Below, piece after piece: positions 8,719 through 58,702 of a stretch of 64,000 bases of DNA. The notes under the pieces were generated by a model, which was given only the letters and a program-made list of their open reading frames with translations, ran no database searches and was not told the origin of the DNA. A program made the position numbers and the translations under genes. Each line of letters opens with the position of its first letter. The first letter of the stretch is position 1. The stretch is from Zobellia barbeyronii (GTDB lineage: Bacteria; Bacteroidota; Bacteroidia; Flavobacteriales; Flavobacteriaceae). Where the stretch lies: assembly GCF_018603515.1 (NCBI RefSeq), contig NZ_JACATN010000003.1, positions 310,001 to 374,000 of the forward strand. Direction: 5' to 3'.

Positions 8719-8761
8719 TGACCTATGTCATAGTCAGTATTATCTTACTACAATACCTTTA
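8719..8761 (+). promoter_or_regulatory. TGAY-N4-RTCA operator and -7 element of the usp-glucoamylase operon
   Basis: Palindrome TGACCTATGTCA (8719-8730) has its centre 33.5 bp before the TTTA of TACCTTTA (8754-8761). The predicted start near 8766 leaves a leader of about 100 nt before the Usp gene. Confidence 0.75.
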
Positions 8762-8868
8762 GTCTTTAGAAAACAATCTAGTAACGCTTGGAAAAGAGGT
8801 TGTTAAAGCCTTGGAGCTACTAATTAATAGTGACCATAAGATATTTTAGAACTGAATAATTCTGTGAA

Positions 8869-9678
8869 ATGAAAAAAATTATAATTCCTACCGATTTTTC
8901 AAAAAATGCACAAAGGGCTATTGATTATGCACTTCTTCTTTTCAAAAATGAGACTTGCACATTTTATATCATACACGCATATCATGATGCGCCTTCTGCC
9001 CCAGGGTCTAAAATGACCTTTCAAGAAGACCTGAATAAACTTGTGAAAGAATTGCAGGCTCAAAACACGACTTATAATCATCGTTTTGAGGGAATCTTAG
9101 AAACCGATTCAGTTTTTAGCTTAACAAAGCGGACTGTAATTAGCGAAAAGGCAGATTATATATTTGTCGGAACAAAAGGCTTGTCTGCCCTCCGTGAAGC
9201 TTTTGTGGGAACTAATACGCTACAACTCATTAGAGATATTAAGAATTTCCCAATAATTTCTGTACCCTCTGTCTATACCATTAATAGTCTAAAGGAAATT
9301 GTTTTTGCAACGGACTTCAAACATACTTTCAAAACTGAAGAGCTCACCCCTATTGTTCAAATAGCTTTAATCTGTAATGCCGATTTGAACATAGCTCACA
9401 TTAAAACTGAAGAAGCTTTGAGCGATGAACAAAAAATAAACAAAGAAATATTGAGAAGCGGACTCAAAGGAGTGAAAGGTCATTTTTTTGAAATCGATTT
9501 ACAAGATTCTGTAGCCAATACATTGGTTCAAATAAAAAATACAAACCAAAATATAGGTATGCTATCCATTTTGAAGACGAAGCACGGTTTTTTTGAAAGC
9601 TTAACACGTGAGAACATCGTAAAAAGTATCGCTTTTAAAACTGAAGTGCCTTTTATGGTACTACCACAAATTGAATAA
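8869..9678 (+). CDS. Tandem UspA-domain universal stress protein
   Basis: A 269-residue cytoplasmic protein with two Usp folds (about 1-145 and 146-269). The first opens with KKIIIPTDFSKNAQRAIDYA and contains the nucleotide-loop-like VGTKGLSALREAFVGTNT. The second opens with KEIVFATDF and is more degenerate, lacking a clear GxxGx9GS. Usp proteins accumulate on starvation, oxygen limitation or oxidative stress and help survival; the molecular action is often unknown. It is the first gene of a likely operon with the ArsC-fold protein and the glucoamylase, driven by a TGAY-N4-RTCA promoter. A second Usp gene lies at 41851-42636. Confidence 0.9.
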   Translation: MKKIIIPTDFSKNAQRAIDYALLLFKNETCTFYIIHAYHDAPSAPGSKMTFQEDLNKLVKELQAQNTTYNHRFEGILETDSVFSLTKRTVISEKADYIFVGTKGLSALREAFVGTNTLQLIRDIKNFPIISVPSVYTINSLKEIVFATDFKHTFKTEELTPIVQIALICNADLNIAHIKTEEALSDEQKINKEILRSGLKGVKGHFFEIDLQDSVANTLVQIKNTNQNIGMLSILKTKHGFFESLTRENIVKSIAFKTEVPFMVLPQIE

Positions 9679-9735
9679 AACAAATTATTTGGAGGAGAAC
9701 AACACACAAAATAAATAGGTCTTGAAATTTAGATT

Positions 9736-10101
9736 ATGGGGGAAATAGCTACATCAAGCAAACAGATTACGTTTTACTATAGCTCAAAATCATTACGGGC
9801 AAAACAAGCCTTGGCCTATGCCAAAGCAGAAGGATTACCTGTAGAAGAAATTGATCTCCTCAAAAATAAACTCACTGGAACACAAATCTTAGAACTAGCG
9901 GAACGACTACAATTAGAAGTGGCGGACTTGGTAAACAAAGAGATTCCAGCCTATAAAAAACACTTTGAGCAGTATAGTTTATCTACAGATGATTGGATAA
10001 AAATGATGCGGTACAATCCTCAAATTATAAAACAACCTATTGCCCTACGTGGCAACAAGACCATCTTGGTCAAAAACCCTACAGATATAACTAAATTATA
10101 A
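9736..10101 (+). CDS. ArsC/Spx-fold protein lacking the catalytic cysteine
   Basis: A 121-residue thioredoxin-like protein of the arsenate reductase/Spx/YffB superfamily. The segment FYYSSKSLRAKQALAYAKAEG aligns with the family's NPRCSKSRxAL loop, with Ser or Lys where the cysteine should be; there is no cysteine anywhere in the protein. The C-terminal NPQIIKQPIALRGNKTIL matches the conserved RPI-loop of ArsC proteins. The catalytic route through cysteine is therefore impossible, and a binding or regulatory role (as Spx binds RNA polymerase) is more likely. It lies 57 bp after the Usp gene in the same direction. Confidence 0.7.
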   Translation: MGEIATSSKQITFYYSSKSLRAKQALAYAKAEGLPVEEIDLLKNKLTGTQILELAERLQLEVADLVNKEIPAYKKHFEQYSLSTDDWIKMMRYNPQIIKQPIALRGNKTILVKNPTDITKL

Positions 10102-10215
10102 TTCCTACTGCATATAACATGTACAAGTAAATAGAACGGTATTCGCATATGATGAAATAGAAAATGTACAAATGAAGCAGGAAGAACTGAATATCAATTT
10201 ATTACAACTTAAAAT

Positions 10216-12588
10216 ATGTCTCAGCAATCAGAGGCGCCCGGCGCACCAGGAATGGAGGCTAGATGGACTTCTAGTACAAAAACAGGAATAGGCAAAGCCT
10301 TAAATTCTGCATCAGATGTAACTTTCACCCTTAGTCACGGTATTCTTAACGAAGCTTATTACCCACGAGAAGATATTGCTTGCATACGTGATATGGGTTT
10401 TGTTGTTACCGATGGCCATGAGTTCTTTTCAGAAGAAAAAAGAGATACGGAACACTTTATAGAAACACTCAAAGATGGTATTCCCGCGTATCATATAGTT
10501 AATACGGACAAGTTCCAAAAATTTCAGATTACTAAAGAAGTCATTGTAGATCCTTATAGAAATACTATTCTACAACATATAGTTTTTGATCAGAAAGACC
10601 CCGAACTTCCTTTACGGCTATTTGCATTACTTGCTCCGCATCTAAACAATGAGGGTGGCCACAACACAGGATGGATTGGTGAATATAAAGGTGTTGAAAT
10701 GCTATTCGCTCAGAATGGAAACATTGCATTGGCTATGGCTTGTTCCACAAAATGGGTGAAACGTTCCGTAGGGTTTGTAGGAACATCTGACGGTTGGAGA
10801 GATATTCGCCAACATGGAAAATTAGAATGGGAATATGACCTTGCCATTAATGGAAATGTGGCACTTACTGGAGAAATAGATCTTACAGAAAAAGATTTTG
10901 TTTTGGCCATAAGTTTTGGAAGAACCCATATAGAAGCCGCCAATCACGCAAGGGCAAGTATTCTAAATGGTTTTGAAACCGCAAAAAGAAAATACATACA
11001 AGAATGGCAAACTTGGCAAGATACCCTACCAAATATACCTGCAGCAAATTTTAGAATGAGTGCTGCCATGTTGCGTATGCACGAGGCCAAAAATTTTCCC
11101 GGGGGAATTATTGCTAGTCTTTCCATTCCTTGGGGAAACACAAAAGGAGACTCGGACAAAAGTGGCTACCATGTAGTTTGGCCAAGAGATTTACTGGAAA
11201 CTGCAGGCGGATTTAATGCGTTGGAAACAAAAGCAGATGTATCCCGTATCGTTAACTATTTGATGTCTACCCAAAATGAAGATGGTAGTTGGCCACAAAA
11301 TATGTGGCTTCAAGGAGAACCTAACTGGGATGGCCTGCAGATGGATCAAATTGCCCTGCCAATTTTGGAAATACTCAAAGGCTACTTACGCAACACAATG
11401 GGTGTAAGCCGGATGAAAAGATATTGGCCTTTAGCAAAAAAAGCGATTACATTTCTATTGAAAAATGGCCCGTATACCAGTCAAGACCGTTGGGAAGAAG
11501 AAGATGGTTTTTCTCCCTTTACGATGGCCACAGAAATTGCCGCATTATTGGCCGGAGCCGAACTGGCAGAAGTAAGTGACGAAAAAGATTTTGCCATCTA
11601 TTGCCGCGAAACCGCAGATAGTTGGAACGATACTATAGAATACCGCACCTATGTTACGGGTACTCCCCTAGCCCAAAAACACGGTGTAGACGGGTATTAT
11701 ATTCGTATTAATCCATTTTCAGATATTCCTGCAACGGAATTGGGTGACCGAACTATTAAACTTAAAAATCACCATTCTGATTATGGAGAAACAAAAATAA
11801 ACGAACTGATCAGTGTAGACGCTTTAGCGCTAGTCAGGTTTGGTCTTCGGGCAGCCGATGACCCCAAAATTCTGAACACATTAAAAGTTATAGACGCTGA
11901 ATTAAAGGTTGCAACTCCTAATGGTGATTGCTGGTACCGTTATAATGGTGATGGTTATGGTGAGCAAGAAAACGGAGACCCTTATGATGGTACCGGAATA
12001 GGTCGTGCATGGCCACTGTTGACCGGAGAAAGAGGTCATTATGAAATAGCCGCCGGTAATATGGAAGCAGCTACTAAGCATTTAATAGCTATGGAAGCCT
12101 TTGCAAACAATGGTTTGTTACCGGAACAAATATGGGACAAAGCTGATATTCCCGAAAAGGGCTTATACTTTGGTGAACATACTGGTTCTGCAATGCCACT
12201 AACTTGGGCACATGCAGAATATATTAAACTCTGCATTTCTATACAGCACAAAAATGTTTTTGACATGCCCAGCCAAACGTGCGAACGTTATCTGAGGAAA
12301 AAAAAGAAATCAGATTATAAAATATGGCGTTTTGATAATGGAACCAGAACACTACCTAAAGACAAAACATTACGAATTGAGACCTTAACGGAATGTACGG
12401 TTCATTGGACAGATGATGATTGGAAAAGTACGTTTATTACAGAATCCGAAAATATGAAATTCGGCATTTTTGTAACCAATATTATACCCACAACACCCCA
12501 GTCTACTGCATTGCAATTTACATTTCATTGGAAAGAAGCAGACAAGTGGGAACAGAGAAATTATTCTGTAAGTATAGCTAATGAATAA
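10216..12588 (+). CDS. Cytoplasmic GH15 glucoamylase-type glucan hydrolase
   Basis: A 790-residue protein of glycoside hydrolase family 15. The N-terminal beta-sandwich (about 1-270) resembles the glucodextranase/bacterial glucoamylase N domain. The (alpha/alpha)6 catalytic domain follows, with YHVVWPRDLLETAGGF, PQNMWLQGEPNWDGLQMDQ, a WEEEDGFSPFTMA segment that fits the general acid region, and LPEQIWD...GSAMPLTWAHAEY near the end. A C-terminal beta domain of about 110 residues closes it. There is no signal peptide, so the substrate is probably intracellular alpha-glucan or imported oligosaccharide, releasing glucose. It probably shares the Usp promoter and feeds glucose to the glk-pfkB-fbaB genes at 38-41 kb. 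A terminator follows. Confidence 0.85.
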   Translation: MSQQSEAPGAPGMEARWTSSTKTGIGKALNSASDVTFTLSHGILNEAYYPREDIACIRDMGFVVTDGHEFFSEEKRDTEHFIETLKDGIPAYHIVNTDKFQKFQITKEVIVDPYRNTILQHIVFDQKDPELPLRLFALLAPHLNNEGGHNTGWIGEYKGVEMLFAQNGNIALAMACSTKWVKRSVGFVGTSDGWRDIRQHGKLEWEYDLAINGNVALTGEIDLTEKDFVLAISFGRTHIEAANHARASILNGFETAKRKYIQEWQTWQDTLPNIPAANFRMSAAMLRMHEAKNFPGGIIASLSIPWGNTKGDSDKSGYHVVWPRDLLETAGGFNALETKADVSRIVNYLMSTQNEDGSWPQNMWLQGEPNWDGLQMDQIALPILEILKGYLRNTMGVSRMKRYWPLAKKAITFLLKNGPYTSQDRWEEEDGFSPFTMATEIAALLAGAELAEVSDEKDFAIYCRETADSWNDTIEYRTYVTGTPLAQKHGVDGYYIRINPFSDIPATELGDRTIKLKNHHSDYGETKINELISVDALALVRFGLRAADDPKILNTLKVIDAELKVATPNGDCWYRYNGDGYGEQENGDPYDGTGIGRAWPLLTGERGHYEIAAGNMEAATKHLIAMEAFANNGLLPEQIWDKADIPEKGLYFGEHTGSAMPLTWAHAEYIKLCISIQHKNVFDMPSQTCERYLRKKKKSDYKIWRFDNGTRTLPKDKTLRIETLTECTVHWTDDDWKSTFITESENMKFGIFVTNIIPTTPQSTALQFTFHWKEADKWEQRNYSVSIANE

Positions 12589-12646
12589 TGCTTGATTAGT
12601 GATTGAGAAACTCAACTAGTAGTAAAATCATAAGATTACTCTTTAG

Positions 12647-12678
12647 AAAAAAGTAGACATGCAGATGTCTACTTTTTT
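12647..12678 (+). terminator. Rho-independent terminator after the glucoamylase gene
   Basis: GTAGACAT and its complement ATGTCTAC around a 4-nt loop, flanked by A-rich and T-rich tracts, so it can act on both strands. A second imperfect inverted repeat with ACAGGC ends lies at about 12708-12751, and the stop of the next minus-strand gene overlaps an AAAAAGCC/GGCTTTTT pair (12786-12822). Confidence 0.8.
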
Positions 12679-12811
12679 TTGTTCTGTATCATAAATATTG
12701 ACAAAAAAACAGGCGGTAGAAAGTGATATTCACCTCTGCTGCCTGTCTTCCAATTACCAACCAACTCTAATCATACCAGTGTCTTAAAAAGCCAATGGTG
12801 TTTTTCTTGTA

Positions 12812-13345
12812 CTAGGCTTTTTTATGATGATTCAAAATTTTGCCTTTTGCATTCGTATGTACATGTATTTTTTTACCATGGTTTTCTAGGATAACTCTAT
12901 AACGTTTTTTTGCTTTCCCATTTCCCAATTGAACCATGTCGTAAGAATCTTTTTCAAATTTCCATTCAGGATATTCTTTTGCAATAGATTTACTTACGGC
13001 ATAAGGTAGCGCTACATTTTTAAAATGCTCTGTAGTTTTAACAAGGTTACCGTCTCTGTCATAAGTAGCAGTAAGTTCTTTTCCTTTCTCTTTCATTACT
13101 ATTTGAAAGGTATCGTAATCTGCATTAGAATCTATATTTGGGTTGATGTAAACATCTCCCTCTACATATTCTACGGGTATCGCATTGTACTCCACAATTG
13201 AGAAATCCGGAAAATCTTCTTCCACAGCGGTTACTACTAGTTCTGGTACTTCTTCTACTTCCAATTTAGCTCTAAAGAGCATGTCTTGTGCATTAGATTG
13301 AAAAGCCAATCCCATTAAAACTGCACTTAATACTACTGTTTTCAT
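12812..13345 (-). CDS. Exported PepSY-like (BLIP-like) protein
   Basis: A 177-residue protein with a cleavable signal peptide (ends at SNAQD). Two repeats of the PepSY-like/DUF2874 type follow: VVTAVEEDFPDFSIVEY and AVSKSIAKEYPEWKFEKD, each followed by strands ending in a YxV or FQIV pattern. Such proteins are common periplasmic proteins of Bacteroidota with unknown function. It lies 46 bp after the YflT-like gene on the same strand and is probably cotranscribed from that gene's TGAY-N4-RTCA promoter. Confidence 0.75.
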   Translation of the reverse strand: MKTVVLSAVLMGLAFQSNAQDMLFRAKLEVEEVPELVVTAVEEDFPDFSIVEYNAIPVEYVEGDVYINPNIDSNADYDTFQIVMKEKGKELTATYDRDGNLVKTTEHFKNVALPYAVSKSIAKEYPEWKFEKDSYDMVQLGNGKAKKRYRVILENHGKKIHVHTNAKGKILNHHKKA

Positions 13346-13391
13346 TTTCTTATAATTTAATATGAATTTCAGTTAAAATTATTTTTGATAC

Positions 13392-13916
13392 TTATGCAGA
13401 TACCGCTTCATCTGAATGGTTATCTACTTTAGTAGCTGAATCTGACATTATTTTTTTTGCTTTCTCTAGTTCTTCAGGGGTGCCGTTAGCAATTACTAGA
13501 AACTTATCTGCTTTAAGAGCAGTCTCATATTGTAATACGCTATCTTTTGGAATTCCAATACCAAAAAGAGCACCACCAAGGGCAGATAATCCCCCAACAA
13601 CTACAGCTCCTTCAAGAGCACCTACTAAAGATGATATTATAGGACCTGCCAACATAACCGGTCCAACACCTGGTATTAAGAAAAAACCGGCACCAAAAAC
13701 AAGTCCCCAGATACCTCCCCAGAAAGCTCCTGCCGACCCCCAGTTTTTCATTCTATCACCAGTGTTATAAAACCCCATTACTTTGTCTTCCTCGTGGTAA
13801 TCTTTACCAACAATAGAAAGCTTTTTCATATCAAAGCCAGACTCTTGTAGTTCTTTAACCACTTTTTCGGCTTTTTGATGCGAGTCGCATATAGCGACTG
13901 TTACTCCATTTTTCAT
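13392..13916 (-). CDS. YflT-like general stress protein with glycine-rich membrane segment
   Basis: A 174-residue protein. Residues 1-50 match the N-terminal domain of Bacillus general stress protein YflT/17M (VAICDSHQKAEKVVKELQESGFDMKKLSIVGKD shortened here by pattern: alternating helix then LSIVG). A hydrophobic, Gly/Ala-rich middle (about 60-125) could insert in a membrane. The C-terminal part (SVLQYETALKADKFLVIANG) closes the fold. It is related to the protein at 58072-58578. Genes of this kind respond to general stress in other bacteria; the mechanism is unknown. Transcription is predicted from a TGAY-N4-RTCA promoter 52 nt upstream. Confidence 0.7.
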   Translation of the reverse strand: MKNGVTVAICDSHQKAEKVVKELQESGFDMKKLSIVGKDYHEEDKVMGFYNTGDRMKNWGSAGAFWGGIWGLVFGAGFFLIPGVGPVMLAGPIISSLVGALEGAVVVGGLSALGGALFGIGIPKDSVLQYETALKADKFLVIANGTPEELEKAKKIMSDSATKVDNHSDEAVSA

Positions 13917-13972
13917 ATGATTCTTATTTAATTATTAATTAAACTTCAAATTCTTATCATCTTTTGATAGGT

Positions 13973-14015
13973 CAAAATTATCTTGATTGATAAGCGATAA
14001 GAATGACCCAGATCA
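13973..14015 (-). promoter_or_regulatory. TGAY-N4-RTCA operator and -7 element of the YflT-like gene
   Basis: TGACCCAGATCA (14004-14015) has its centre 33.5 bp before TTTG of the minus-strand TAATTTTG (13980-13973). Predicted start near 13968. The identical 12-mer controls the ClC gene at 15523. Confidence 0.75.
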
Positions 14016-14120
14016 GTTACCCTTAGTTTTAATATTTTTTTAACAAAGCAGTTATTTATTCTTAAAATTGATAAGCAATTGATAAACAGTATTTTATATT
14101 GAAACATGGCATTGTAATTT

Positions 14121-15452: not shown

Positions 15453-15491
15453 GGCTGTGCTTAAACTGTATCCAAATTGAATATAGATTCA

Positions 15492-15534
15492 CAAAATTAA
15501 ACCGTGTATACTGCATCAAGAATGACCCAGATCA
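15492..15534 (-). promoter_or_regulatory. TGAY-N4-RTCA operator and -7 element of the ClC gene
   Basis: TGACCCAGATCA (15523-15534) has its centre 33.5 bp before TTTG of the minus-strand TAATTTTG (15499-15492). Predicted start near 15487, 35 nt before the ATG. Confidence 0.8.
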
Positions 15535-15569
15535 GTTGTTAAAAACAATACTCATTTATTTTTTAGATA

Positions 15570-15612
15570 TGACCCAAGTCATTCTTATTGGGTGGGAAGT
15601 CGGTTAATTTTG
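15570..15612 (+). promoter_or_regulatory. TGAY-N4-RTCA operator and -7 element of the MCE/Mla operon
   Basis: TGACCCAAGTCA (15570-15581) has its centre 33.5 bp before TTTG of TAATTTTG (15605-15612). The predicted start near 15617 lies downstream of the first open codon of the permease frame (TTG 15588), so that codon cannot be the translation start. Confidence 0.8.
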
Positions 15613-15647
15613 AGGGTTGCATAGCGCTACAAATTCAAAAAATAGAT

Positions 15648-17206: not shown

Positions 17207-17209
17207 ATC

Positions 17210-18190: not shown

Positions 18191-18229
18191 CGGAAAACAG
18201 GAATAGTCAGCTTTAAATTCATTCGTTCA

Positions 18230-18272
18230 TGATTTGTATCATACATCATTTTTAAATACTGTAATACCTTCA
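18230..18272 (+). promoter_or_regulatory. TGAY-N4-RTCA operator and -7 element of the enolase gene
   Basis: TGATTTGTATCA (18230-18241) has its centre 33.5 bp before TTCA of TACCTTCA (18265-18272), a weaker -7 match. Predicted start near 18277, leader about 100 nt. Confidence 0.6.
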
Positions 18273-20581: not shown

Positions 20582-20624
20582 TGATTTGAATCATAAATAC
20601 AAATCATACTACCTCCTACTTTTG
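20582..20624 (+). promoter_or_regulatory. TGAY-N4-RTCA operator and -7 element of the TolC-ABC exporter operon
   Basis: TGATTTGAATCA (20582-20593) has its centre 33.5 bp before TTTG of TACTTTTG (20617-20624). Predicted start near 20629, 49 nt before the ATG. A half-site repeat (AAATCAT) follows at 20601-20607. Confidence 0.8.
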
Positions 20625-32373: not shown

Positions 32374-33910
<1,537 letters not shown>

Positions 33911-33931: not shown

Positions 33932-33974
33932 TGACCTAGGTCATTTTCATTGGCAAGGAAACATCGGAGATTCG
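33932..33974 (+). promoter_or_regulatory. TGAY-N4-RTCA operator of the ppsA-glycolysis operon
   Basis: A second perfect TGACCTAGGTCA (33932-33943), 33 bp from the first, so both lie on about the same DNA face. At the standard distance the -7 element would be GAGATTCG (33967-33974), a poor match. The site may use a non-standard promoter or a different start. Confidence 0.6.
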
Positions 33975-40187: not shown

Positions 40188-41261
40188 ATGAAAATGACGG
40201 AAAAACTTTCTTTGCCCTTAGCTCATAAATCTCTGATTCCTTTGGCAGTTGGTTCTAAAACGAGTTTAGGTCATACAAATGGAAATGTGTTAGCGGGTGA
40301 TATAGGAGGAACTAAGACTAATCTAGCACTTTACGAATATAAAGATGGTCACCTTTTTCTAGTCAAACAAAAATCATATAGAACAAAGAACCACTCCTCT
40401 TTACTAGAAATCATAGAAGATTTTGAAATAGAAGAAATGGCTAAGATAGATAGTATATGTTTTGGTGTAGCCGGTCCCATAACCAAAGGAAAGGTGCATG
40501 GCACCAATTTCCCTTGGCGAATTGATACCAAAAAGCTCATCAAAGCACTTCATCTTAAATCCATTTTTTTAATAAATGACATGCAGGCCAACGCCTATGG
40601 GCTGGCCGCACTAGAGGAAAAGGATTTAGATCATTTAAAATATGGTTCAAAAATAGAAGGTAATGCTGTTATTATTTCTCCAGGAACTGGTTTAGGGGAA
40701 GCCGGCCTATTTTGGGACGGCTCTGCATACCATCCTTTTGCCACAGAAGGAGGCCATTGCGATTTTAGTCCGAGAAACGATTTTGACCTTGAAATATGGA
40801 AATATTTTCAGCAGAAATATGGCCATGTAAGTTGGGAGCGTTTGCTATCAGGACAAGGTATATGTGATACCTATCAACTGATACGTAATGTTAGTGGTGA
40901 AAAAGAAACCGATGCTTTTAAAGCAAAAATGGCCAAAGAAGATCCGGCTGCCGTTATCACCAAAACGGCTTTGGAAGGTTCTGATGTAGTCTGCAGGGAA
41001 ACCTTAGATCTTTTTGTTCGATTTTTAGCAATAGAAACTTCTCAACTTGCCTTAAAATTTAAGGCTACCGGAGGTATTTATATTGGTGGAGGAATTATGC
41101 CCAAGATTATAAAAGGAATGAATAGAGAAGTATTTACAGATAATTTTATGCAGTCTGGACGCATGAACTCTCTTTTACAAATGGTTCCCGTAGATGTTAT
41201 TCTTAATGATAATACAGCTTTGATGGGAGCGGCATATTATGCTGCAATGAATCTTGAGTAA
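40188..41261 (+). CDS. glk: Glucokinase (Glk family)
   Basis: A 357-residue sugar kinase of the bacterial glucokinase family. The phosphate-binding GDIGGTKTNLALY starts at about residue 38, after an N-terminal extension of some 35 residues that is not part of the family core. INDMQANAYGL has the catalytic Asp, ISPGTGLGEAG and EGGHCDFSPR are typical Glk motifs. It phosphorylates glucose, which the cytoplasmic glucoamylase at 10.2 kb could release. It is the last gene of the operon. Confidence 0.9.
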   Translation: MKMTEKLSLPLAHKSLIPLAVGSKTSLGHTNGNVLAGDIGGTKTNLALYEYKDGHLFLVKQKSYRTKNHSSLLEIIEDFEIEEMAKIDSICFGVAGPITKGKVHGTNFPWRIDTKKLIKALHLKSIFLINDMQANAYGLAALEEKDLDHLKYGSKIEGNAVIISPGTGLGEAGLFWDGSAYHPFATEGGHCDFSPRNDFDLEIWKYFQQKYGHVSWERLLSGQGICDTYQLIRNVSGEKETDAFKAKMAKEDPAAVITKTALEGSDVVCRETLDLFVRFLAIETSQLALKFKATGGIYIGGGIMPKIIKGMNREVFTDNFMQSGRMNSLLQMVPVDVILNDNTALMGAAYYAAMNLE

Positions 41262-42676: not shown

Positions 42677-42719
42677 CAAATTTAGTCTTAGATTATAAGA
42701 AAATACATGACTTTGGTCA
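42677..42719 (-). promoter_or_regulatory. TGAY-N4-RTCA operator and -7 element of the Usp operon
   Basis: TGACTTTGGTCA (42708-42719) has its centre 33.5 bp before TTTG of the minus-strand TAAATTTG (42684-42677). Confidence 0.8.
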
Positions 42720-43457: not shown

Positions 43458-43500
43458 CAAAGGTATAGGGGTCTTTTTCAATTTTAAATGACCTACGTCA
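43458..43500 (-). promoter_or_regulatory. TGAY-N4-RTCA operator and -7 element of the WG-repeat gene
   Basis: TGACCTACGTCA (43489-43500) has its centre 33.5 bp before TTTG of the minus-strand TACCTTTG (43465-43458). The rest of the 309-bp gap to the next gene holds one further operator (43636) and no ORF. Confidence 0.8.
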
Positions 43501-43635: not shown

Positions 43636-43678
43636 TGATTTAAATCATATTTAAACTTGAGGATTTAAAATAGCTTTG
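43636..43678 (+). promoter_or_regulatory. TGAY-N4-RTCA operator and -7 element of the AhpD-like/ftsH operon
   Basis: TGATTTAAATCA (43636-43647) has its centre 33.5 bp before TTTG of TAGCTTTG (43671-43678). Predicted start near 43683. Confidence 0.8.
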
Positions 43679-46251: not shown

Positions 46252-46294
46252 TGACTTGCGTCATATCTAATGTGCTAGGAAAATTACACCTTTG
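46252..46294 (+). promoter_or_regulatory. TGAY-N4-RTCA operator and -7 element of the helical protein/ABC1 kinase operon
   Basis: TGACTTGCGTCA (46252-46263) has its centre 33.5 bp before TTTG of CACCTTTG (46287-46294). Predicted start near 46299. Confidence 0.75.
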
Positions 46295-49730: not shown

Positions 49731-49855
49731 TCCTAGCCAAAAAAGCATCTACTTAAATAAATTTTCTAATCTGTCTTCAGCAAGATGGGCTAGCCCTTAT
49801 TTTCTTAAACTATCACCTGGATAAACAACTGAAATTTCATGTTTTTACGTGTGCA

Positions 49856-49898
49856 TGACCTAGGTCAGTTTATCATCTCGCGCCTTCCCATAACTTTG
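49856..49898 (+). promoter_or_regulatory. TGAY-N4-RTCA operator and -7 element of the oleate hydratase genes
   Basis: The perfect palindrome TGACCTAGGTCA (49856-49867) has its centre 33.5 bp before TTTG of TAACTTTG (49891-49898). The predicted start near 49903 gives a leader of about 190 nt, the longest in the set. The rest of the 360-bp gap holds a possible leader peptide (50022-50084). Confidence 0.85.
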
Positions 49899-50021
49899 AA
49901 TACGGATTTTTCAAGTAGGCTTTTGCTAGAATGCAATTGTAAACTTCAAACCCCTATTATAACTAAAAAACCGCACAAAATAATGTAGCTCTTAGATAGA
50001 CCCGAAGACTTTAATCAGGCG

Positions 50022-50084
50022 ATGATGATGCTGAAGAAACTTACTGGCCAACTACGAATTACGATAAATAATAATTTAAAATAA
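50022..50084 (+). CDS. Possible 20-codon leader ORF
   Basis: ATG-ATG-ATG start followed by KKLTGQLRITINNN and a TAA stop 6 nt before the oleate hydratase ATG. Position inside the long predicted leader is suggestive of a leader peptide. There is no independent coding evidence. Confidence 0.2.
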   Translation: MMMLKKLTGQLRITINNNLK

Positions 50085-50090
50085 TTTATT

Positions 50091-51692: not shown

Positions 51693-51762
51693 ATATACTC
51701 ACGGTCAACCTTAAGGAATTAATAAAAAAGAACATTTATTAAACAGGCAAATTAAGACTCTG

Positions 51763-51778
51763 CTCCGAAGCTTCGGAG
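51763..51778. repeat. 16-bp perfect palindrome between the oleate hydratase genes
   Basis: CTCCGAAGCTTCGGAG without loop, in a GC-rich island of the otherwise AT-rich spacer. No T-tract follows on either strand, so it is not a standard terminator. Function unknown. Confidence 0.5.
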
Positions 51779-51856
51779 GGGTCAGGATAGAAAAACAATG
51801 AAAGCAAACTTTTTATACCTAGCCTTAATTGCACAATGCTCAGAAAATTAGAAAAC

Positions 51857-53797
51857 ATGGGAAAAATAACAGAAAAATTCGACAAAGTATTAAATGCATC
51901 ACCATTCCCCGGACATGTAGATCATGCTCCAGATGCCAGTAAAGAAGTAGTACGCAATTCTAAAGATCAACCCATGCCTTTTGCTGATCTTACCGGAAAC
52001 TACCAACGTAATAAGGGTATTCCACCTATATCTTTTAAAGACAGTAAAGTTTATATTGTAGGTACTGGTATTGCTGGTCTATCTGCTGCATATTACTTTA
52101 TAAGAGATGGGCACATACCTGGCAAAAATATCGTTTTCCTTGACAAAATAGCTATTGAAGGTGGTTCTTTAGATGGATCAGGAAATGCTGAAGATGGCTA
52201 CCTTATAAGAGGTGGCAGAGAACTGGAAATGAACTATGAGAACCTATGGGATATTTTTCAAGATATTCCTGCTTTAGAAATGCCCGCTCCTTATAGTGTT
52301 CTAGACGAATTTCGTTTACTAAATGATAACGACCCCAATTATTCAAAAGCTAGATTAATTCATAATAATGGAGAAGTACTAGATTTTAGCAAATTTAATT
52401 TAAACAAACTAGATCAATTAGCTGTTGTAAAACTTTTACTAAAAAAGAAAGAAGAGTTAGATGATGTTACCGTTGAAAGTTATTTCAGTGACTCCTTTTT
52501 TGAAAGTAACTTTTGGGCGCTTTTCCGTACCATGTTCGCTTTTGAAAACTGGCACAGTTTACTAGAGTGCAAATTATATATGCACCGGTTTTTACACCGT
52601 ATTGATGGTTTTAATGACCTATCATGCTTGGTATTTCCAAAATACAATCAGCATGATACTTTTGTAAAACCTCTAACAGAACATCTAAAATCTAAAGGGG
52701 TTCAAATTCAGTTCAACACCTTCGTTAAAGATTTAGATATACAAATAAATACAGAAGGTAAAGTTGTTAAAGGTATAATTACCCAACAAGAAGATAAAGA
52801 AGTAACCATCCCTGTAACTGAAAACGATTTTGTAATTGTTACCACAGGTTCTATGACAGAGGACACTCGTTATGGAGATAATACAAATGCACCAATTGAA
52901 GGTATTGATAGTATTAAAGGTGGTGAAAGTGACGGATGGCAGTTATGGAAAAACTTAGCTACAAAATCTATTGAATTTGGTAAACCTGAAAAGTTCTACA
53001 GTTCTGTTGAAAAATCTTCTTGGGAATCTGCTACATTAACGTGTCGCCCTTCTGCTTTAACTGAAAAATTTAAAGAATACTGTGTAAACGACCCATATTC
53101 CGGAAAATCGGCAACCGGAGGTATTGTAACTATTACAGACTCTAACTGGTTAATGAGTTTCACCATTAATCGCCAACCGCACTTTCCTGAACAACCAGAT
53201 GATATTTTGGTGGTATGGGTCTATGCTTTATTTATGGATAAAGACGGGAACTATAGTAAAAAATCAATGCCACAATGCACAGGTAATGAAATATTAGCTG
53301 AGTTATGTTTTCATATTGGTTTAGAGAATAAAATTGATACTATTATTAAAAATACTATTGTAAAAACCAGCTTTATGCCCTACATAACTTCTATGTTTAT
53401 GCCTAGAGCAGCAGGAGACAGACCAGAAGTTGTACCAAATGGTTCTAAGAACTTAGGTCTTGTAGGACAGTTTGTAGAAACACATAATGATGTAGTGTTC
53501 ACCGTAGATACTTCAATTAGAACTGCTAGAATAGCTGTTTATGAATTAATGAATCTTAACAAGCAAGTACCAGATATTGCTGCTGGTCAGTATGATATTC
53601 GTCAACTATTAAAAGCAGCTAAGGCTTTAAACGATTACAAACCTTTTCCTGGTGAAAGTGTTCTAAAGCGTGTACTAAAAAACACCTACTTTGAACATAT
53701 TTTACCTGAAGGAATAGAAGACGAAGGTCAACATGATTCTTTTCTTTATGAACAGTTAGATAAAATTAAAGGGTGGGCAAAAGAGCTTACACATTAA
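51857..53797 (+). CDS. ohyA: Oleate hydratase
   Basis: A 646-residue FAD-dependent hydratase. The ATG at 51857 is preferred to 51836. After an N-terminal extension of about 60 residues (found in Elizabethkingia OhyA too), the FAD motif is [37 protein letters not shown] keeps the glutamate after RGGREL, equivalent to the catalytic E122. The family's YNQY tyrosine segment reads [11 protein letters not shown], one Tyr replaced by His. It should add water to cis double bonds of free fatty acids such as oleate, a detoxifying reaction. It is longer by about 110 residues than its upstream paralog. Confidence 0.88.
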
Positions 53798-53866
53798 CTT
53801 TTTATCTGACTTGCAGAAAATACGTTAACAGTTATTACGCTGCATCTTATAATATTTACATTTAAG

Positions 53867-53913
53867 AAATACAGATTCAGCAACTTTAGTTAGTTGCTAA
53901 TCTGTATTTTTTT
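53867..53913 (+). terminator. Rho-independent terminator after the oleate hydratase pair
   Basis: Long inverted repeat (AAATACAGATT...AGCAACT with complement 53892-53910; one bulge) followed by a T-tract. Confidence 0.85.
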
Positions 53914-54007
53914 GTGCTTACAGGTCTACGGTTCTGGATGTTTCTAAGTGCTATCTACCATTAAAAACTACTCTTCTTTTTTTAAATTTTTATAAAAAGT
54001 AGCTACA

Positions 54008-54050
54008 TGATTTAAATCAGTATAATCGTTTTTCAATCGCTATACCTTTG
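54008..54050 (+). promoter_or_regulatory. TGAY-N4-RTCA operator and -7 element of the dps gene
   Basis: TGATTTAAATCA (54008-54019), the same 12-mer as at 43636, has its centre 33.5 bp before TTTG of TACCTTTG (54043-54050). Predicted start near 54055, 23 nt before the ATG. Confidence 0.85.
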
Positions 54051-54077
54051 AATAGGTATTAATTAAAAACTATAAAA

Positions 54078-54554
54078 ATGAAAACACCTAACATCGGAAT
54101 TTCAGCAGAAAATAGACAGGCCATAGCAGACCAATTATCAAAAGTATTAGCAGACGAATTCGTACTTTATTCAAAAACCCTAAATTTCCATTGGAACCTT
54201 GAAGGTCCTGATTTTCATTCTGTACATCTGTATTTAGAAACTTTGTATGAAGAGCAACAAGAAGTAGTTGATACCGTGGCCGAAAAAATACGCATGGTAG
54301 GTCATTATGTACCAGCTACGTTAAAAAACTACTCTCAATTGACTCATCTTACCGAAAAATTAAAAGGTAAAAATGATAGTCAAAGCATATTTGCCGAGTT
54401 ATTGGAGGACCATGAGAGCATTATTATCTTTCTAAGAGAAGAAATTCAACCTATTGCAGAAAAATGGAAGGCTGAAGGCATTAGCGATTATATTACAGGG
54501 TTAATGGAACAGCATGAGAAAACTGCTTGGATGCTGCGATCACATTTAGCTTAG
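54078..54554 (+). CDS. dps: Dps-family DNA-binding ferritin-like protein
   Basis: A 158-residue ferritin-fold protein. TLNFHWNLEGPDFHSVHLYLETLYEEQQEVVDTVAEKI gives the Dps ferroxidase ligands (His in NFHWN, His/Asp/Glu in the DFHSVH..E..YEEQ part). Dps forms 12-subunit shells that oxidise iron with peroxide and protect DNA in starved cells. Starts an operon with the DUF1566 gene 21 bp downstream. Confidence 0.93.
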   Translation: MKTPNIGISAENRQAIADQLSKVLADEFVLYSKTLNFHWNLEGPDFHSVHLYLETLYEEQQEVVDTVAEKIRMVGHYVPATLKNYSQLTHLTEKLKGKNDSQSIFAELLEDHESIIIFLREEIQPIAEKWKAEGISDYITGLMEQHEKTAWMLRSHLA

Positions 54555-54575
54555 TTCAATTAAAGCAAACCTATT

Positions 54576-55859
54576 ATGAAACGGATTGTAAAACCTAAAA
54601 AACGTACATCAATTGTATTCGGTTTTTGTTGTGTACTCATAGTTATTGTTTTGGTATTAAGCTCTGCCAAAAACTTGTCATCTAGTAGTATTGCTCAAAA
54701 TACCAAAAGGAATTTAGACTATCCAATAGTTGGCACGAATCAGACTAAATTCTACGACAACAGTACTGAAATTAATACTCAAACCGTTGGCGATGATTTT
54801 TACGGGCAAAATGCAAATTACCCTAAAAATACTCCTAAATATAAAGACAACGGTGATGGTACAGTTACCGATTTAGTGACCAGTTTAATGTGGCAACAGA
54901 GCCCGGACACCAATGGTGATGGAAAAATTACGGCAAGAGATAAAATGACCTACAAGGAAGCAGTTGCCGGTGCAGCTTCTTTTAATTTAGGAGGGTATAC
55001 AGATTGGAGATTACCCACAATTAAAGAACAGTATTCGTTAATTGTTTTTAGCGGAGTTGACCCTAGTGGTTATAAAGGTTCGACTTTAGATGGTTTAAAG
55101 CCTTTTATAGATACAGATTATTTCAAATTTGCTTACGGTGATACAAATGATGGAGAACGTATTATTGATTCTCAATATGCTAGTTCTACCATGTATGTAG
55201 ATGGAGAATTATTATTTGGAGTCAATTTTGCCGATGGTCGTATAAAAGGCTACGGATTAAAAATGCCATTTGGTCCTGGAGATAAAACGTTTTTTGTAAC
55301 CTATGTTAGAGGAAACAAGAACTATGGCATTAATAAATTTAATGATAATGGTGATGGTACCATCTCTGATAAGGCTACAGGTCTTATGTGGATGCAAAAC
55401 GATAATAAAAAAGGCACAACATGGCAAGAAGCATTGAACTATGCGGAAAACTATGAATTTGCAGGGTATTCTGATTGGAGGCTGCCCAACGTAAAAGAAT
55501 TACAGAGCATAGTTGATTATTCTAGATCTCCTAACACTTCTGACTCTGCGGCTATAGATCCAATTTTCAATTGTTCAGAAATCGTAAATGAAGCTGGTCA
55601 AAAAGACTATCCTTTTTATTGGTCAAGTACAACGCATTCTAACTGGTCTACGGACATGAATGGTAGAAATGCATCTTATGTTTCTTTTGGAAGAGCTATG
55701 GGCTATATGGATGGCAAATGGATGGATGTACACGGTGCAGGTGCGCAGCGTAGCGACCCAAAAATTGGTAACCCTAAAGATTGGCCCGAAGGCCACGGCC
55801 CGCAAGGTGATGCGCAAAGAATTAATAATTATGTGCGGTTGGTAAGGGATATTAAATAA
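54576..55859 (+). CDS. Membrane-anchored DUF1566 (Lcl-like) protein
   Basis: A 427-residue exported protein with one N-terminal hydrophobic helix (about 12-32, no cleavage site seen). It has two DUF1566/Lcl C-terminal-type repeats: KYKDNGDGTVTDLVTSLMWQQ with GGYTDWRLPTIKEQ, and KFNDNGDGTISDKATGLMWMQ with AGYSDWRLPNVKEL. The first repeat also includes NGDGKITARDK, an EF-hand-like loop. Function unknown; the domain resembles surface-exposed binding modules of other proteins. Cotranscribed with dps. Confidence 0.85.
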   Translation: MKRIVKPKKRTSIVFGFCCVLIVIVLVLSSAKNLSSSSIAQNTKRNLDYPIVGTNQTKFYDNSTEINTQTVGDDFYGQNANYPKNTPKYKDNGDGTVTDLVTSLMWQQSPDTNGDGKITARDKMTYKEAVAGAASFNLGGYTDWRLPTIKEQYSLIVFSGVDPSGYKGSTLDGLKPFIDTDYFKFAYGDTNDGERIIDSQYASSTMYVDGELLFGVNFADGRIKGYGLKMPFGPGDKTFFVTYVRGNKNYGINKFNDNGDGTISDKATGLMWMQNDNKKGTTWQEALNYAENYEFAGYSDWRLPNVKELQSIVDYSRSPNTSDSAAIDPIFNCSEIVNEAGQKDYPFYWSSTTHSNWSTDMNGRNASYVSFGRAMGYMDGKWMDVHGAGAQRSDPKIGNPKDWPEGHGPQGDAQRINNYVRLVRDIK

Positions 55860-55860
55860 C

Positions 55861-55907
55861 AATAGCTTCTGATTTTTTATCACTTAAAAATCAGAAGCTA
55901 TTTTTTT
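55861..55907 (+). terminator. Rho-independent terminator after the dps operon
   Basis: AATAGCTTCTGATTTTT and its complement around an 8-nt loop, ending in seven T. The remaining 180 bp to the next (minus-strand) gene show nothing notable. Confidence 0.9.
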
Positions 55908-56085
55908 ATTTTAGTTTTTTAATGCGAGGTCTTACTCTAGCTTAACATTGAAATTTCTGCTGATAGAGTTTTAGAAATTACCTTTTCCTAACTCCACCAA
56001 TTATTTACTGGAAAAACTCTAAGGTCTTCCGCTATTTAAAAATATAAGCTACAAGAAGAATTCTTTCTTAGCTTATACAAAAATT

Positions 56086-56451
56086 CTAATGGGTATAACC
56101 GCCACCTAAGAAGCTCTCTAACACCTTGAGTTGCCACTTACCTACTATTGAAAGTTTGGTTTCAGCATTCATTAATACAAGACCATAACCCAAACGAGAT
56201 AATTTACAATCACTTATAACCTCATCAGCAATACTACTAAAAACAGGTCTGAAATGCTCTCGTAAATTCATTTTAGAAGACTTGGCCACATCCATAGCTT
56301 TCGCTACCGCAGAGCTAATTTGCTTTGGTGATAGTCCTTTATACAATAAATCGCTAGCAAAGAAATGCATACGCAAACCGTAGTAAAGATCCATGAAGTT
56401 GTTAATGCTGTCTGCGGTTTGGTTTTCTTGCTTATAAATAGAGACTTGCAT
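56086..56451 (-). CDS. Hypothetical helical protein
   Basis: A 121-residue protein with no recognised family. It is soluble and mainly helical, with a hydrophobic LYYGLRMHFFASDLL segment and a GLSPKQISSAVAKAMDVAKSS helix that might resemble a UBA- or HTH-like turn, though I would not claim DNA binding. It is the third gene after the sigma-like gene, but a set of hairpins at 56495-56628 separates it from the second, so its transcription may be reduced or separate. Confidence 0.55.
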   Translation of the reverse strand: MQVSIYKQENQTADSINNFMDLYYGLRMHFFASDLLYKGLSPKQISSAVAKAMDVAKSSKMNLREHFRPVFSSIADEVISDCKLSRLGYGLVLMNAETKLSIVGKWQLKVLESFLGGGYTH

Positions 56452-56494
56452 AATAATATTAGTTTAGAACATTTTATAGTTTGAATTAAAAATA

Positions 56495-56628
56495 AACAAG
56501 CCGAGATCAATTTTTTCAAGAACTTCTTTTCTCAATATTTGACTCGGCTTGTTCTGGTAAATAGCGCAAATAACTTGCGCTACACTTGCTTAGAGAGATT
56601 AAATCCCCACAATCTTTATATCTCTAAG
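56495..56628 (-). terminator. Three successive hairpins between two minus-strand genes
   Basis: CTTAGAGA/TCTCTAAG (56589-56628), TAGCGCAA/TTGCGCTA (56562-56582) and AACAAGCCGAG/CTCGGCTTGTT (56495-56553, long loop). The last is followed on the minus strand by a TTTATTTTT run, so it works as a terminator; the first two may be a structured 3' end or a small RNA. Confidence 0.6.
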
Positions 56629-56636
56629 CTAAAAAG

Positions 56637-57044
56637 TTAAAGACTTTTTACATACCCGAAAACCATCTTTTTGAACTGACGAAAGTTATTTGTAAAACCT
56701 TCCATCCTTTGTTTAAGTTGGCGGTGTTTATCTCTATAGTCGGCATCGGCCAAACCTTTTTCACCTAATTCTAAACGAGACAGTAATTTTTCATGTTCTA
56801 TTATATCATTCTCTAAATAATCGAACAATTCTTTATGTACGGTATCTAGATTTTCAAGAATTTGGCCGTAGGCTGTTTGTGCAGCATCATTGGTCTTTCT
56901 TTTCTCTATTAAATCAGCAAAAAATCTAGTCTCGTCTTTATAAAAGGCAATGTTGCTCAACCATTCCTCACTTTCAAAATGAAGAACGTCTAACCCGGCA
57001 CCTATTAATAATTCCGTTTTTGGATTCAACGTTTCTGTTTTCAT
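56637..57044 (-). CDS. Small helical protein, W-x5-F[YW]KD family (member C)
   Basis: A 135-residue charged helical protein. EEWLSNIAFYKDETRFFADL gives the family motif shared with 41370-41801 and 46349-46735. The C-terminal FRQFKKMVFGYVKSL corresponds to the end of member B. Coiled-coil character between residues 55 and 120. Follows the sigma-like gene by 86 bp and probably depends on its operator-controlled promoter. Name not known. Confidence 0.7.
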   Translation of the reverse strand: MKTETLNPKTELLIGAGLDVLHFESEEWLSNIAFYKDETRFFADLIEKRKTNDAAQTAYGQILENLDTVHKELFDYLENDIIEHEKLLSRLELGEKGLADADYRDKHRQLKQRMEGFTNNFRQFKKMVFGYVKSL

Positions 57045-57130
57045 AATGTACTATTTAAATTTGTTGTTTTATAAATTACCTGGCTCAACTGAGCTGGGAT
57101 TTTATAGCTATTTGATAGTAACGTATCAAT

Positions 57131-57901
57131 TTATTTTTCTATCTCATACCTATTGAAAAAACTAGCTTCAAGGCTCTTACGGGCATTATCTAAAAGCACT
57201 TTTACCTCGCCTATACTTTGATTACGGATCATGGCTATTTGACTAATAGAAAATTCATATTCCGTAGCTAATTCAAACACGGTACGCATTGGCTTTGGCA
57301 AATAATGCAAGACCATGGCCGCATGTTTTTTGATACTCTCTTTATCCAAATCCTTATCAATTTTATCCATCAGTTCTTTTTTATCGTCTTCGATAAAAAC
57401 ATGGTTTAATATGTAATCATTCTTTGGGTATGACATATCATCTAGCTCATCTATCATAACTAAATCGCCACCACCATCTGTACTAAATTTTTCTTCCATC
57501 TCATCCCATTCCGGACGGGAATAATCATCAATATTTTTCAAAAAATAATCATCAAAGTCTTCATCTAGTATGGTGTTCTCTAAAAGTTCATCTGCTTTTT
57601 TAAACAACCAAGGATGCAAATCATCTTCACTTCTAACCTCTTCAAAATGATCAAAGACTACAATAAAGAGCTGATCAATAAAATCATCTACCTTATATTT
57701 TCCTTTTGGAAGGTTTCCTTTAGTTAGTGCAGTTGCCAATCTTTTGGTAACGTAATGTTTTACCTGACTTAAGTCTTTCAATAATAAATTATTGAATAAG
57801 GACTTATCACCCTCCTTTTTAAAGTGTTTTAAATCTGAAAACGTACTTGCTACAAATACATTAAATTCCTTTTTACTTTCATAATATTCAAGAGTGTCCA
57901 T
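57131..57901 (-). CDS. Divergent sigma-70-like (ECF-type) factor
   Basis: A 256-residue protein. Residues 45-110 resemble sigma region 2 (VDDFIDQLFIVVFDHFEEV, then HPWLFKKADELLEN), and residues 190-248 resemble region 4 with a helix-turn-helix (VLHYLPKPMRTVFELATEYEFSISQIAMIRNQSIGEVKV by its LPKPMRTVFEL and ISQIAMI motifs). The 80-residue acidic link between them is much longer than in ordinary ECF factors. No anti-sigma gene is adjacent. I take it as a regulatory sigma-like protein; promoter recognition is unproven. Confidence 0.65.
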   Translation of the reverse strand: MDTLEYYESKKEFNVFVASTFSDLKHFKKEGDKSLFNNLLLKDLSQVKHYVTKRLATALTKGNLPKGKYKVDDFIDQLFIVVFDHFEEVRSEDDLHPWLFKKADELLENTILDEDFDDYFLKNIDDYSRPEWDEMEEKFSTDGGGDLVMIDELDDMSYPKNDYILNHVFIEDDKKELMDKIDKDLDKESIKKHAAMVLHYLPKPMRTVFELATEYEFSISQIAMIRNQSIGEVKVLLDNARKSLEASFFNRYEIEK

Positions 57902-57929
57902 GTTGTTTGCTTTAAATTATAATACGATA

Positions 57930-57972
57930 TAAAAATGCGTACATATGAGGTAGATTACTATGACCTAGGTCA
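57930..57972 (-). promoter_or_regulatory. TGAY-N4-RTCA operator and -7 element of the sigma-like gene
   Basis: The perfect palindrome TGACCTAGGTCA (57961-57972) has its centre 33.5 bp before TTTA of the minus-strand CATTTTTA (57937-57930), a weaker -7 match. Predicted start near 57925, 24 nt before the ATG. Confidence 0.75.
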
Positions 57973-58071
57973 GCCGTTCCAAAATAAAACCGATTTAGAC
58001 CTTAAGATTTCCTCTGAAAAATCTAATCAATAAACAGCCGTACTAACTTCTTATAATGCTACGTATATTTG

Positions 58072-58578
58072 TTAATTACCCAATTTATCTTCCAGTTGAT
58101 TTCCTAATTGATTCTCCAATTTCTGAATATCAGAAAGGTTTCCTCTGGCAACCAGTAAATACGTTTTATCTTTTAATTTACTAATGCTAGCAATAGCATC
58201 TTTTTCAGTTATACCAAAACCCCTCAATATTCCATATGGGCCTCCAGAAAGTTCTCCTATACCCCTCTTTCCTACAGAATTAAGAAATGTCTCAACCAAG
58301 AACCCAGCTACAAATAAGCGTCCTAACTCAGCATTATAAAAAGTGTCAAAAGCGGTAGTAGTACCCAGTAACTCCTTAAAGAAAGGGCTTAATTGGTTTT
58401 CTATAGTTGTTAACTCTTTACTCTCATTTATATACTCTTCTCCAAGATTTCCGATTACCGATACGGCCATTTTATCAAAATTTGTTTGGCGGACGGTTTT
58501 TAAAGCATTTTCCAAATCCGAAACCAGTTCGTACGGTTTTAGAAAAATCTGTTTTTGTTCTGTTTTTGACATGTCCAT
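58072..58578 (-). CDS. YflT-like general stress protein
   Basis: A 168-residue protein related to 13392-13916: an N-terminal helix then FDKMAVSVIGNLGEE (against FDMKKLSIVGKDYHEE), a Gly-rich loop (GGPYGILRGFGITEKD against GALFGIGIPKD), and a closing strand LLVARG (FLVIANG). The hydrophobic middle is less marked than in the paralog. The start may also be the second ATG at 58572. A stress role is inferred. Controlled by the divergent operator at 58660-58671. Confidence 0.65.
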   Translation of the reverse strand: MDMSKTEQKQIFLKPYELVSDLENALKTVRQTNFDKMAVSVIGNLGEEYINESKELTTIENQLSPFFKELLGTTTAFDTFYNAELGRLFVAGFLVETFLNSVGKRGIGELSGGPYGILRGFGITEKDAIASISKLKDKTYLLVARGNLSDIQKLENQLGNQLEDKLGN

Positions 58579-58628
58579 TTTAATAAAAATTTAGAGATTG
58601 CTGTGTTTGGTCGGGGCGTTCTCTAGGG

Positions 58629-58671
58629 TAAAATTACAAGTAGATATTTTTAATACTACTGACCTAAGTCA
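58629..58671 (-). promoter_or_regulatory. Shared operator, minus-strand promoter of the YflT-like gene
   Basis: TGACCTAAGTCA (58660-58671) has its centre 33.5 bp before TTTA of the minus-strand TAATTTTA (58636-58629). The same palindrome serves the plus strand. Confidence 0.75.
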
Positions 58672-58702
58672 TGAAGACAAAAAATTAACTTAGTTAAATT
58701 TG
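58660..58702 (+). promoter_or_regulatory. Shared operator, plus-strand promoter of the YtxH operon
   Basis: The same palindrome's centre is also 33.5 bp before TTTG of TAAATTTG (58695-58702). One site thus sits at the class II distance from both divergent -7 elements. Predicted start near 58707. Confidence 0.8.

Follow-up and report, generated by a model that had tools for sequence, protein, structure and literature searches.

What could coordinate the stress and energy genes crowded into one 64-kb stretch of the Zobellia barbeyronii genome? This stretch, called the window in what follows, covers positions 310001-374000 of contig C31 in a 4.98-Mb genome; it has 36.6% GC and contains no N. A first-pass annotation had noticed short TGAY-N4-RTCA palindromes at a constant distance from TAnnTTTG promoter boxes and had proposed as their regulator REC-Crp, a receiver domain fused to a Crp-type module (59672-60739, minus strand). 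The observation was confirmed and is stronger than first stated. The sequences are best read as a shared regulon with class II Crp/Fnr geometry, for which REC-Crp is the best candidate regulator. In this two-component regulon a PAS histidine kinase would act through the receiver-Crp fusion on class II promoters of persistence genes; we assign it a probability of about 0.73. Both class II Crp/Fnr control and persistence islands for low oxygen are already known as kinds of system. A literature search, with most subscription papers outside its scope, found no description of a receiver-Crp fusion regulon, of its 14-bp grammar or of its family-wide extent.

The site and its distance to the promoter box

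All 16 palindromes listed at first were recovered by a pattern scan of the window, together with three others at 4218, 40865 and 53593. This total of 19 compares with a mean of 3.85 (maximum 9) in 300 dinucleotide shuffles of the window. Ten exact site-plus-box pairs were found, against 0.017 per shuffle; with up to one mismatch there were 15 against 0.067, and no shuffle held more than one pair of either kind. The distance of 33.5 bp from palindrome centre to the first T of TTTG proved exact. It gave the sole peak in an offset scan from -119.5 to +120.5, with 10 exact boxes at +33.5, 2 at the next best offset and a mean of 0.025 at the others.

Exact boxes accompany the palindromes at 14004, 15523, 15570, 20582, 42708, 43489, 43636, 49856, 54008 and, in the plus direction, 58660. 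One mismatch was seen at 8719, 33899, 46252 and in the minus direction of 58660, and two at 18230, 57961 and 33932, the last being the poor box of ppsA. The earlier tally of 17 promoters (10 with perfect boxes, 6 with one or two mismatches and the poor one of ppsA) was correct, as were its 16 sites; the total was not, since the site at 4218 had been missed, and it now stands at 17 sites and 18 promoters. The palindromes at 40865, in the glucokinase gene, and at 53593, in the second MCRA gene, are decoys with at least three mismatches in either direction. They also lack one or both of two flanking bases that are present at 17 of 17 promoter sites.

These flanks extend the TGAY-N4-RTCA motif, whose core was right, to a full site of 14 bp, (A/C)TGAY-N4-RTCA(T/G). 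In an alignment of 78 promoter instances, representing 19 promoters in five Zobellia genomes and including the 58660 palindrome in both directions, TGA was preceded in every case by A (48) or C (30), and TCA followed by T (67) or G (11). Pairwise divergence was 0.02 and 0.00 at the flanking bases, compared with 0.28 in the 23-bp spacer and 0.38 in the 12 bp upstream. The zero divergence at TGA/TCA, and partly that of the box, follows from the way instances were selected, whereas positions -1 and +12 are free of such selection. Orthologous promoters in the five Zobellia thus kept palindrome, flanks and box, while spacer and surroundings diverged.

Mapped starts of Flavobacterium psychrophilum place TAnnTTTG at -12 to -5 (PMC9723704), and the palindrome centre therefore falls at -41.5, the class II position that the first-pass annotation had suggested. 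The 33.5-bp distance occurs in 18 promoters, 10 of them with perfect boxes, and by this numbering the starts are predicted 8 nt beyond the first T of TTTG.

Chance or local base composition would be a natural objection, given that the DNA is AT-rich and TAnnTTTG a common promoter box. The shuffles and the offset scan led us to reject it, and the flanking bases and orthologous conservation also speak against it; its probability is negligible.

The regulon had been thought to span 50 kb, a limit that does not hold. Genome-wide, 26 exact pairs were found and none in a reversed control; with up to one mismatch the counts were 56 and 12. Of the 26, 10 lie inside the window, and the part of its contig at 213-378 kb holds 15. 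Exact sites elsewhere include the one belonging to the kinase/REC-Crp operon, just outside the window at C31 374162-374204. Nor are the pairs equally common inside genes, a possibility raised from the start: 21 of the 26 lie where there is no stop-free stretch longer than 450 nt. Among the other five, L012 and L008 resemble upstream extensions of the downstream frame, and L006, L023 and L024 are the remaining exact sites within such stretches.

Distribution of the sites and of the candidate regulator

REC-Crp, counting the window's own protein and orthologues at 85-94% identity, is present in five of nine Zobellia. These five genomes hold 26, 26, 18, 21 and 19 exact pairs, versus 4, 4, 4 and 3 in those without it; for the narrower pattern with both flanks, MTGAYYNNRRTCAK-N22-TANNTTTR, the counts were 16, 17, 6, 12 and 6 versus zero in all four. 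The flanked 14-mer had 48 exact boxes at 33.5 bp in the five Zobellia, against a mean of 0.18 per other offset.

The geometry recurs in nine other genera, and this evidence is stronger than the contrast within the genus. Their genomes come from the ten non-Zobellia genomes with REC-Crp of at least 54% identity, G056 being left out. Within 40 kb around REC-Crp they contain 101 palindromes with the geometry and at most one mismatch, in front of different target genes; the 14-mer had 43 exact boxes at 33.5 bp against a mean of 0.20 per other offset. Both flanks, which played no part in site selection, fit in 76/76 geometry sites of Zobellia and 95/101 of the other genera, compared with 23/39 and 23/38 of the palindromes lacking the geometry. 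Homologues of orf58072 occur in seven of the nine genera (six with a site) and of the YtxH-like protein in five (all five with a site). Across 199 family genomes, with REC-Crp called at E<=1e-50, the pair TGAYYNNRRTCA-N23-TANNTTTG was matched in 65 of 86 genomes with REC-Crp and 33 of 113 without it (Fisher p 6.5e-11, uncorrected for kinship, related genomes not being independent).

REC-Crp itself belongs to the Crp/Fnr superfamily by its PF00027 and PF13545 domains, its alignment with CRP and its residues E317 and R321. Its closest named relative, from Zobellia uliginosa, is 89% identical. D52, E317 and R321 are invariant in 80 of 80 aligned proteins (the window's and 79 others), and E317 and R321 align in HMMER with CRP residues that we take to be Glu181 and Arg185. 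The positions of the cAMP contacts of CRP, presumably Glu72 and Arg82, are occupied by Q210 and Y220; Glu at 210 and Arg at 220 were each found in 4 of 80 proteins. Judged by these residues the cAMP contacts are lost and REC-Crp is not a cAMP-CRP. An FNR-type N-terminal cysteine cluster is also absent, the region before the Crp module being a receiver domain with a single Cys (C51). The invariant phospho-acceptor D52 and the partner kinase encoded upstream are those of a response regulator, for which phosphotransfer is predicted. Co-occurrence, the sites in other genera, the invariant residues and the site at its own operon all point to REC-Crp as the best candidate. The operon site is also found in the four other Zobellia carrying the operon and suggests feedback.

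A second type of REC-Crp, about 43-46% identical, is widespread; a site lies within 50 bp after it in G153, G178, G140, G172, G068 and G192. The gene following the site behind this type encodes a Usp homologue in G018 and G014. G002 holds a second REC-Crp (41%) with a kinase about 10 kb from the main pair (C2 2868000-2875500, L150), adjoining five Usp homologues, four of which have their own sites.

Several observations weigh against REC-Crp as the regulator. Within the genus the contrast suffers from confounding, since the four Zobellia without REC-Crp also lack ppsA and a P-type ATPase target some 100 kb away. An attempt to separate regulator from genes by means of targets outside the island failed; the confounding stands because the P-type ATPase is absent together with the regulator and a ferredoxin-reductase-like gene (C11:403526) has a similar palindrome at an unchanged position in every one of the nine Zobellia, whether or not they carry REC-Crp. 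In the family, 21 of the 86 genomes with REC-Crp lack the TGAYYNNRRTCA-N23-TANNTTTG match, and G148 lacks it with a REC-Crp 79% identical; within 40 kb G148 has 12 promoters with the general palindrome and at most one box mismatch. The distribution of REC-Crp, moreover, is shared by a second Crp-family protein recognised by Pfam at the edge of the island (910-1542, minus strand), whose orthologues (89-100% identity) are confined to those same five Zobellia. That this protein binds the sites is nevertheless very improbable. Its gene lies about 4 Mb (by coordinate) off the island in G005 and on another contig in G008, it adjoins rhodanese genes, and its recognition helix, SRVVISR, lacks by eye the Glu of TGA-binding relatives. 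No significant alignment was found between it and REC-Crp.

A more serious competitor is the resident FNR-like paralogue (C32:597161, with an N-terminal CENC), to which the sites would belong, wholly or jointly, if they formed an ordinary anaerobic FNR regulon enriched in this region. Its recognition helix is nearly the same as that of REC-Crp, with TATE-x-x-IR and the key residues in common. The 33.5-bp spacing is also seen for sites with A-N2-T at the centre, among them those in front of its own gene and of a gene that by eye is HemN-like. At C11:403526 the site is kept in genomes that lack REC-Crp, and G010 and G012, both without a REC-Crp match, have 15 exact general pairs each. Yet the four Zobellia lacking REC-Crp keep such a paralogue (27-28% matches over the Crp part) and have just three or four exact pairs and none of the flanked pattern, and in the nine other genera the sites cluster around REC-Crp, with other target genes. 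We consider the FNR explanation unlikely; some sites may still be FNR's or shared, and cross-talk between the two proteins is likely. The geometry is not private to REC-Crp. Given the FNR-like sites and the palindrome found in all nine Zobellia, the 33.5-bp distance is probably common to this Crp/Fnr group in the family. A division of the sites by their centre, Y-N2-R for REC-Crp and A-N2-T for FNR, was clean in Zobellia with the flanked pattern and was rejected because it fails outside: G148 has no match despite its close REC-Crp, and 33 of 113 genomes without REC-Crp do match. In G007, which lacks REC-Crp, a Y-N2-R palindrome is retained together with an imperfect box.

The kinase, the possible signal and known systems

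The kinase gene (60717-63995, minus strand; several PAS domains and a GAF domain by Pfam) overlaps that of REC-Crp by 23 nt. An open reading frame of at least 400 codons lies directly upstream of REC-Crp in 57 of 80 loci, with a PAS1 match in 52 of the 57. Among the 15 distinct PDB sequences matched by PAS1 of the window kinase, 13 were DosP/YddU/EcDos or FixL; 10jx, a multi-sensor kinase, ranked first, and DosP and FixL were likewise among the closest. Its His66 aligns with a DosP His, presumably the heme ligand there, and this proximal His is present in 50 of the 53 alignable partner kinases (58 given).

In the reading that we prefer, the kinase would sense low oxygen or a related gas or redox cue through its N-terminal domain, which resembles a heme-PAS; alternatively its cue would be cellular energy. 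It would phosphorylate Asp52 of the receiver fused to the Crp-type DNA-binding module. The active REC-Crp dimer would then bind (A/C)TGAY-N4-RTCA(T/G) centred at -41.5 and recruit RNA polymerase to TAnnTTTG promoters through class II contacts. This would turn on a persistence programme comprising Usp, Dps, FtsH, the N-ATPase, gluconeogenic/glycolytic enzymes, lipid transport, export and the operon of the regulator itself.

Low oxygen is possibly the signal, to judge from the heme-PAS-like domain and the gene content. Against a heme sensor of this type, the distal-Arg position is a Glu in the window kinase, with Arg in only 14 of 53 partner kinases, and three relatives lack the proximal His of PAS1. 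The same regulon and regulator might instead answer to energy starvation or stationary phase, or the protein might also repress. This alternative is less probable but deserves serious attention, and it overlaps with the best explanation, so that the likelihoods of the two do not sum. The targets are general stress genes, any of the several PAS domains or the GAF domain could be the dominant one, and the missing His of the three relatives fits here as well. On the other side, activators classically sit at -41.5, 13 of the 15 structural relatives of PAS1 are DosP/YddU/EcDos or FixL, five partner kinases carry the FixL-like signature HDxY...IIGxGRE, and Burkholderia has a similar set of genes that is responsive to low oxygen.

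Target genes are reshuffled around REC-Crp in the other genera. Behind the sites stand Hsp20, BON, Dps, patatin, dodecin, peroxiredoxin, PCMT/erythromycin esterase, the LigD polymerase domain, phosphate acetyltransferase and Usp. For eight of these kinds one representative was confirmed by Pfam; the others were named from visual inspection or from their resemblance to genes of the window. PEP synthase and PfkB are also among the targets. Usp and the PfkB operon have sites in the window too, the latter with its poor box. Hsp20 stands behind a site in the islands of the four other Zobellia and, by eye, in eight of the nine other genera (one confirmed by Pfam), whereas none was found in the window or in four further stretches of the same genome. 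At C31:377536 on the minus strand (L166:3567) there is a promoter orthologous to the Hsp20 promoter with no Hsp20 frame behind it, apparently orphaned by loss of the gene.

How does this compare with known systems? At class II promoters of E. coli CRP and FNR we find the same TGA-type palindrome, Crp helix-turn-helix with Glu and Arg and centre at -41.5; here, however, the promoter is the TAnnTTTG of Bacteroidota, and REC-Crp has a receiver domain and neither the cAMP contacts of CRP nor an N-terminal cysteine cluster. With the FixL-FixJ-FixK cascade our system shares a PAS kinase, its PAS1 being similar to FixL and DosP, and a DNA-binding module resembling FixK, though its 78 bits with the NCBIfam FixK model fall short of the cutoff of 300. 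The output domain of FixJ is of the LuxR type; in the present system receiver and Crp module are fused and the step from FixJ to FixK is missing. DosR of Mycobacterium also differs by a LuxR-type output.

The low-oxygen persistence reading rests on the resemblance of the target content to two regulons. According to PMC6127331 the DosR dormancy regulon is hypoxia-induced and Usp-rich, with alpha-crystallin and phosphofructokinase, and the authors liken to it the lxa locus of Burkholderia cenocepacia. The latter has about 50 co-regulated genes, including six Usp, alpha-crystallin, a BON protein, an MBL-superfamily protein and phosphofructokinase (PMC6127331, PMC9060813). It belongs to another phylum, its suggested regulator is the separate CRP protein BCAM0049, and the main text of PMC6127331 nowhere mentions phosphoenolpyruvate. 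Another comparable system is the oxygen utilization regulon of Myxococcus, NmpRSTU, where a kinase pathway that depends on heme controls Usp and HemN genes at low oxygen; it differs in its NtrC-like regulator and protoglobin kinase sensor (PMC11841059).

It is an even bet whether we see here the Bacteroidota's own equivalent of DosR and lxa: an anoxia-persistence regulon of a REC-Crp fusion and a FixL/DosP-like kinase, with a 14-bp site locked at -41.5 and targets, even distant ones, gained and lost with the regulator, to which Zobellia would have recruited the N-ATPase and reversible glycolysis as means of gaining energy in the absence of respiration. To our knowledge few regulons are defined in environmental Bacteroidota; so sharp a site could offer a genome-by-genome readout of survival genes in such bacteria, and its regulator is directly testable. 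Should low oxygen prove to be the signal, three distant phyla would have assembled similar persistence toolkits under different regulators.

Promoters and genes of the window

Sites had been said to precede nearly every transcription unit. Some units are exceptions: the EF-hand/YHYH genes (4437-8642) and GH15 have none in the window. GH15 has one in G005 and G008.

The missed palindrome, 4218, serves the MBL-rhodanese gene at 2704-4119 (promoter 4187-4229, minus; box GAGCTTTG, one mismatch, both flanks). Its predicted leader of about 60 nt assumes a start 11 nt after the first T, and true leaders would be about 3 nt longer. Then follow Usp1, a Pfam Usp protein (8719-8761, plus; TACCTTTA, one mismatch), the YflT-domain gene (13973-14015, minus; exact), ClcA (15492-15534, minus; exact), the MlaEFD operon (15570-15612, plus; exact), enolase (18230-18272, plus; TACCTTCA, two mismatches, with an identical box in G002 and G006) and the OEP/HlyD/ABC exporter operon (20582-20624, plus; exact).

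Two divergent operons occupy the centre of the window. The N-ATPase operon (33868-33910, minus) has the box TACTTTTA, with one mismatch, in all five Zobellia with REC-Crp. On the plus strand (33932-33974) the site of the ppsA-LDH-PGM-PfkB-FbaI-Glk operon has the poor box GAGATTCG, with two mismatches; palindrome and box are identical in the same five genomes. Two more imperfect boxes are conserved in all five: CACCTTTG, with one mismatch, before the orf46349-ABC1 kinase-DUF4010 operon (46252-46294, plus), and CAnnTTTA before the sigma-like gene (57930-57972, minus; CATTTTTA, two mismatches).

Exact boxes are found for Usp2 (42677-42719, minus), the WG-repeat gene (43458-43500, minus), the CMD-FtsH operon (43636-43678, plus), the MCRA (oleate hydratase-like) genes (49856-49898, plus) and the Dps/ferritin-like gene (54008-54050, plus). 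The palindrome at 58660 is shared by orf58072 (58629-58671, minus; TAATTTTA, one mismatch) and the YtxH-like gene (58660-58702, plus; exact), a divergent pair also present in the four other Zobellia with REC-Crp.

By Pfam the window encodes Usp, ArsC, GH15, YflT, a ClcA-type exchanger, MlaEFD, enolase and the exporter; the N-ATPase (with AtpR), PEP synthase, a D-2-hydroxyacid dehydrogenase, PfkB and glucokinase, the ppsA operon including a histidine phosphatase (phosphoglycerate-mutase-like) and a class I aldolase; and FtsH, MgtC/DUF4010, two MCRA (oleate hydratase) proteins, a Dps/ferritin-like protein, YtxH and the sigma-like protein. The last (57131-57901, 256 aa) is recognised by Pfam in sigma region 4 alone, has its own site and recurs near REC-Crp in many relatives outside Zobellia; a second regulatory tier is possible. 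The EF-hand/YHYH gene pair without an activator site is tandemly duplicated.

Some further arrangements of the site were noted. Loci L083-L112 and L134, mostly Dyadobacter, show a secondary offset peak at 55.5/56.5 bp (e.g. L086:1108, plus). Here a TCATC half-site stands before GTAGTTTTG and the full palindrome some two helical turns further upstream, an arrangement resembling a full and a half site in tandem. The variant TGAY-N4-GTCACTGCA has the same geometry in several Flavobacteriaceae (e.g. G044, G061, G070, G145, G182, G205 and G017) and possibly marks another regulon. The site TGACTTTTGTCAC at G000:C31:289290 (L009), also present in G005 and G018, is followed by an unusually conserved stretch, and the gene behind it encodes a cysteine-containing protein of 125 aa.

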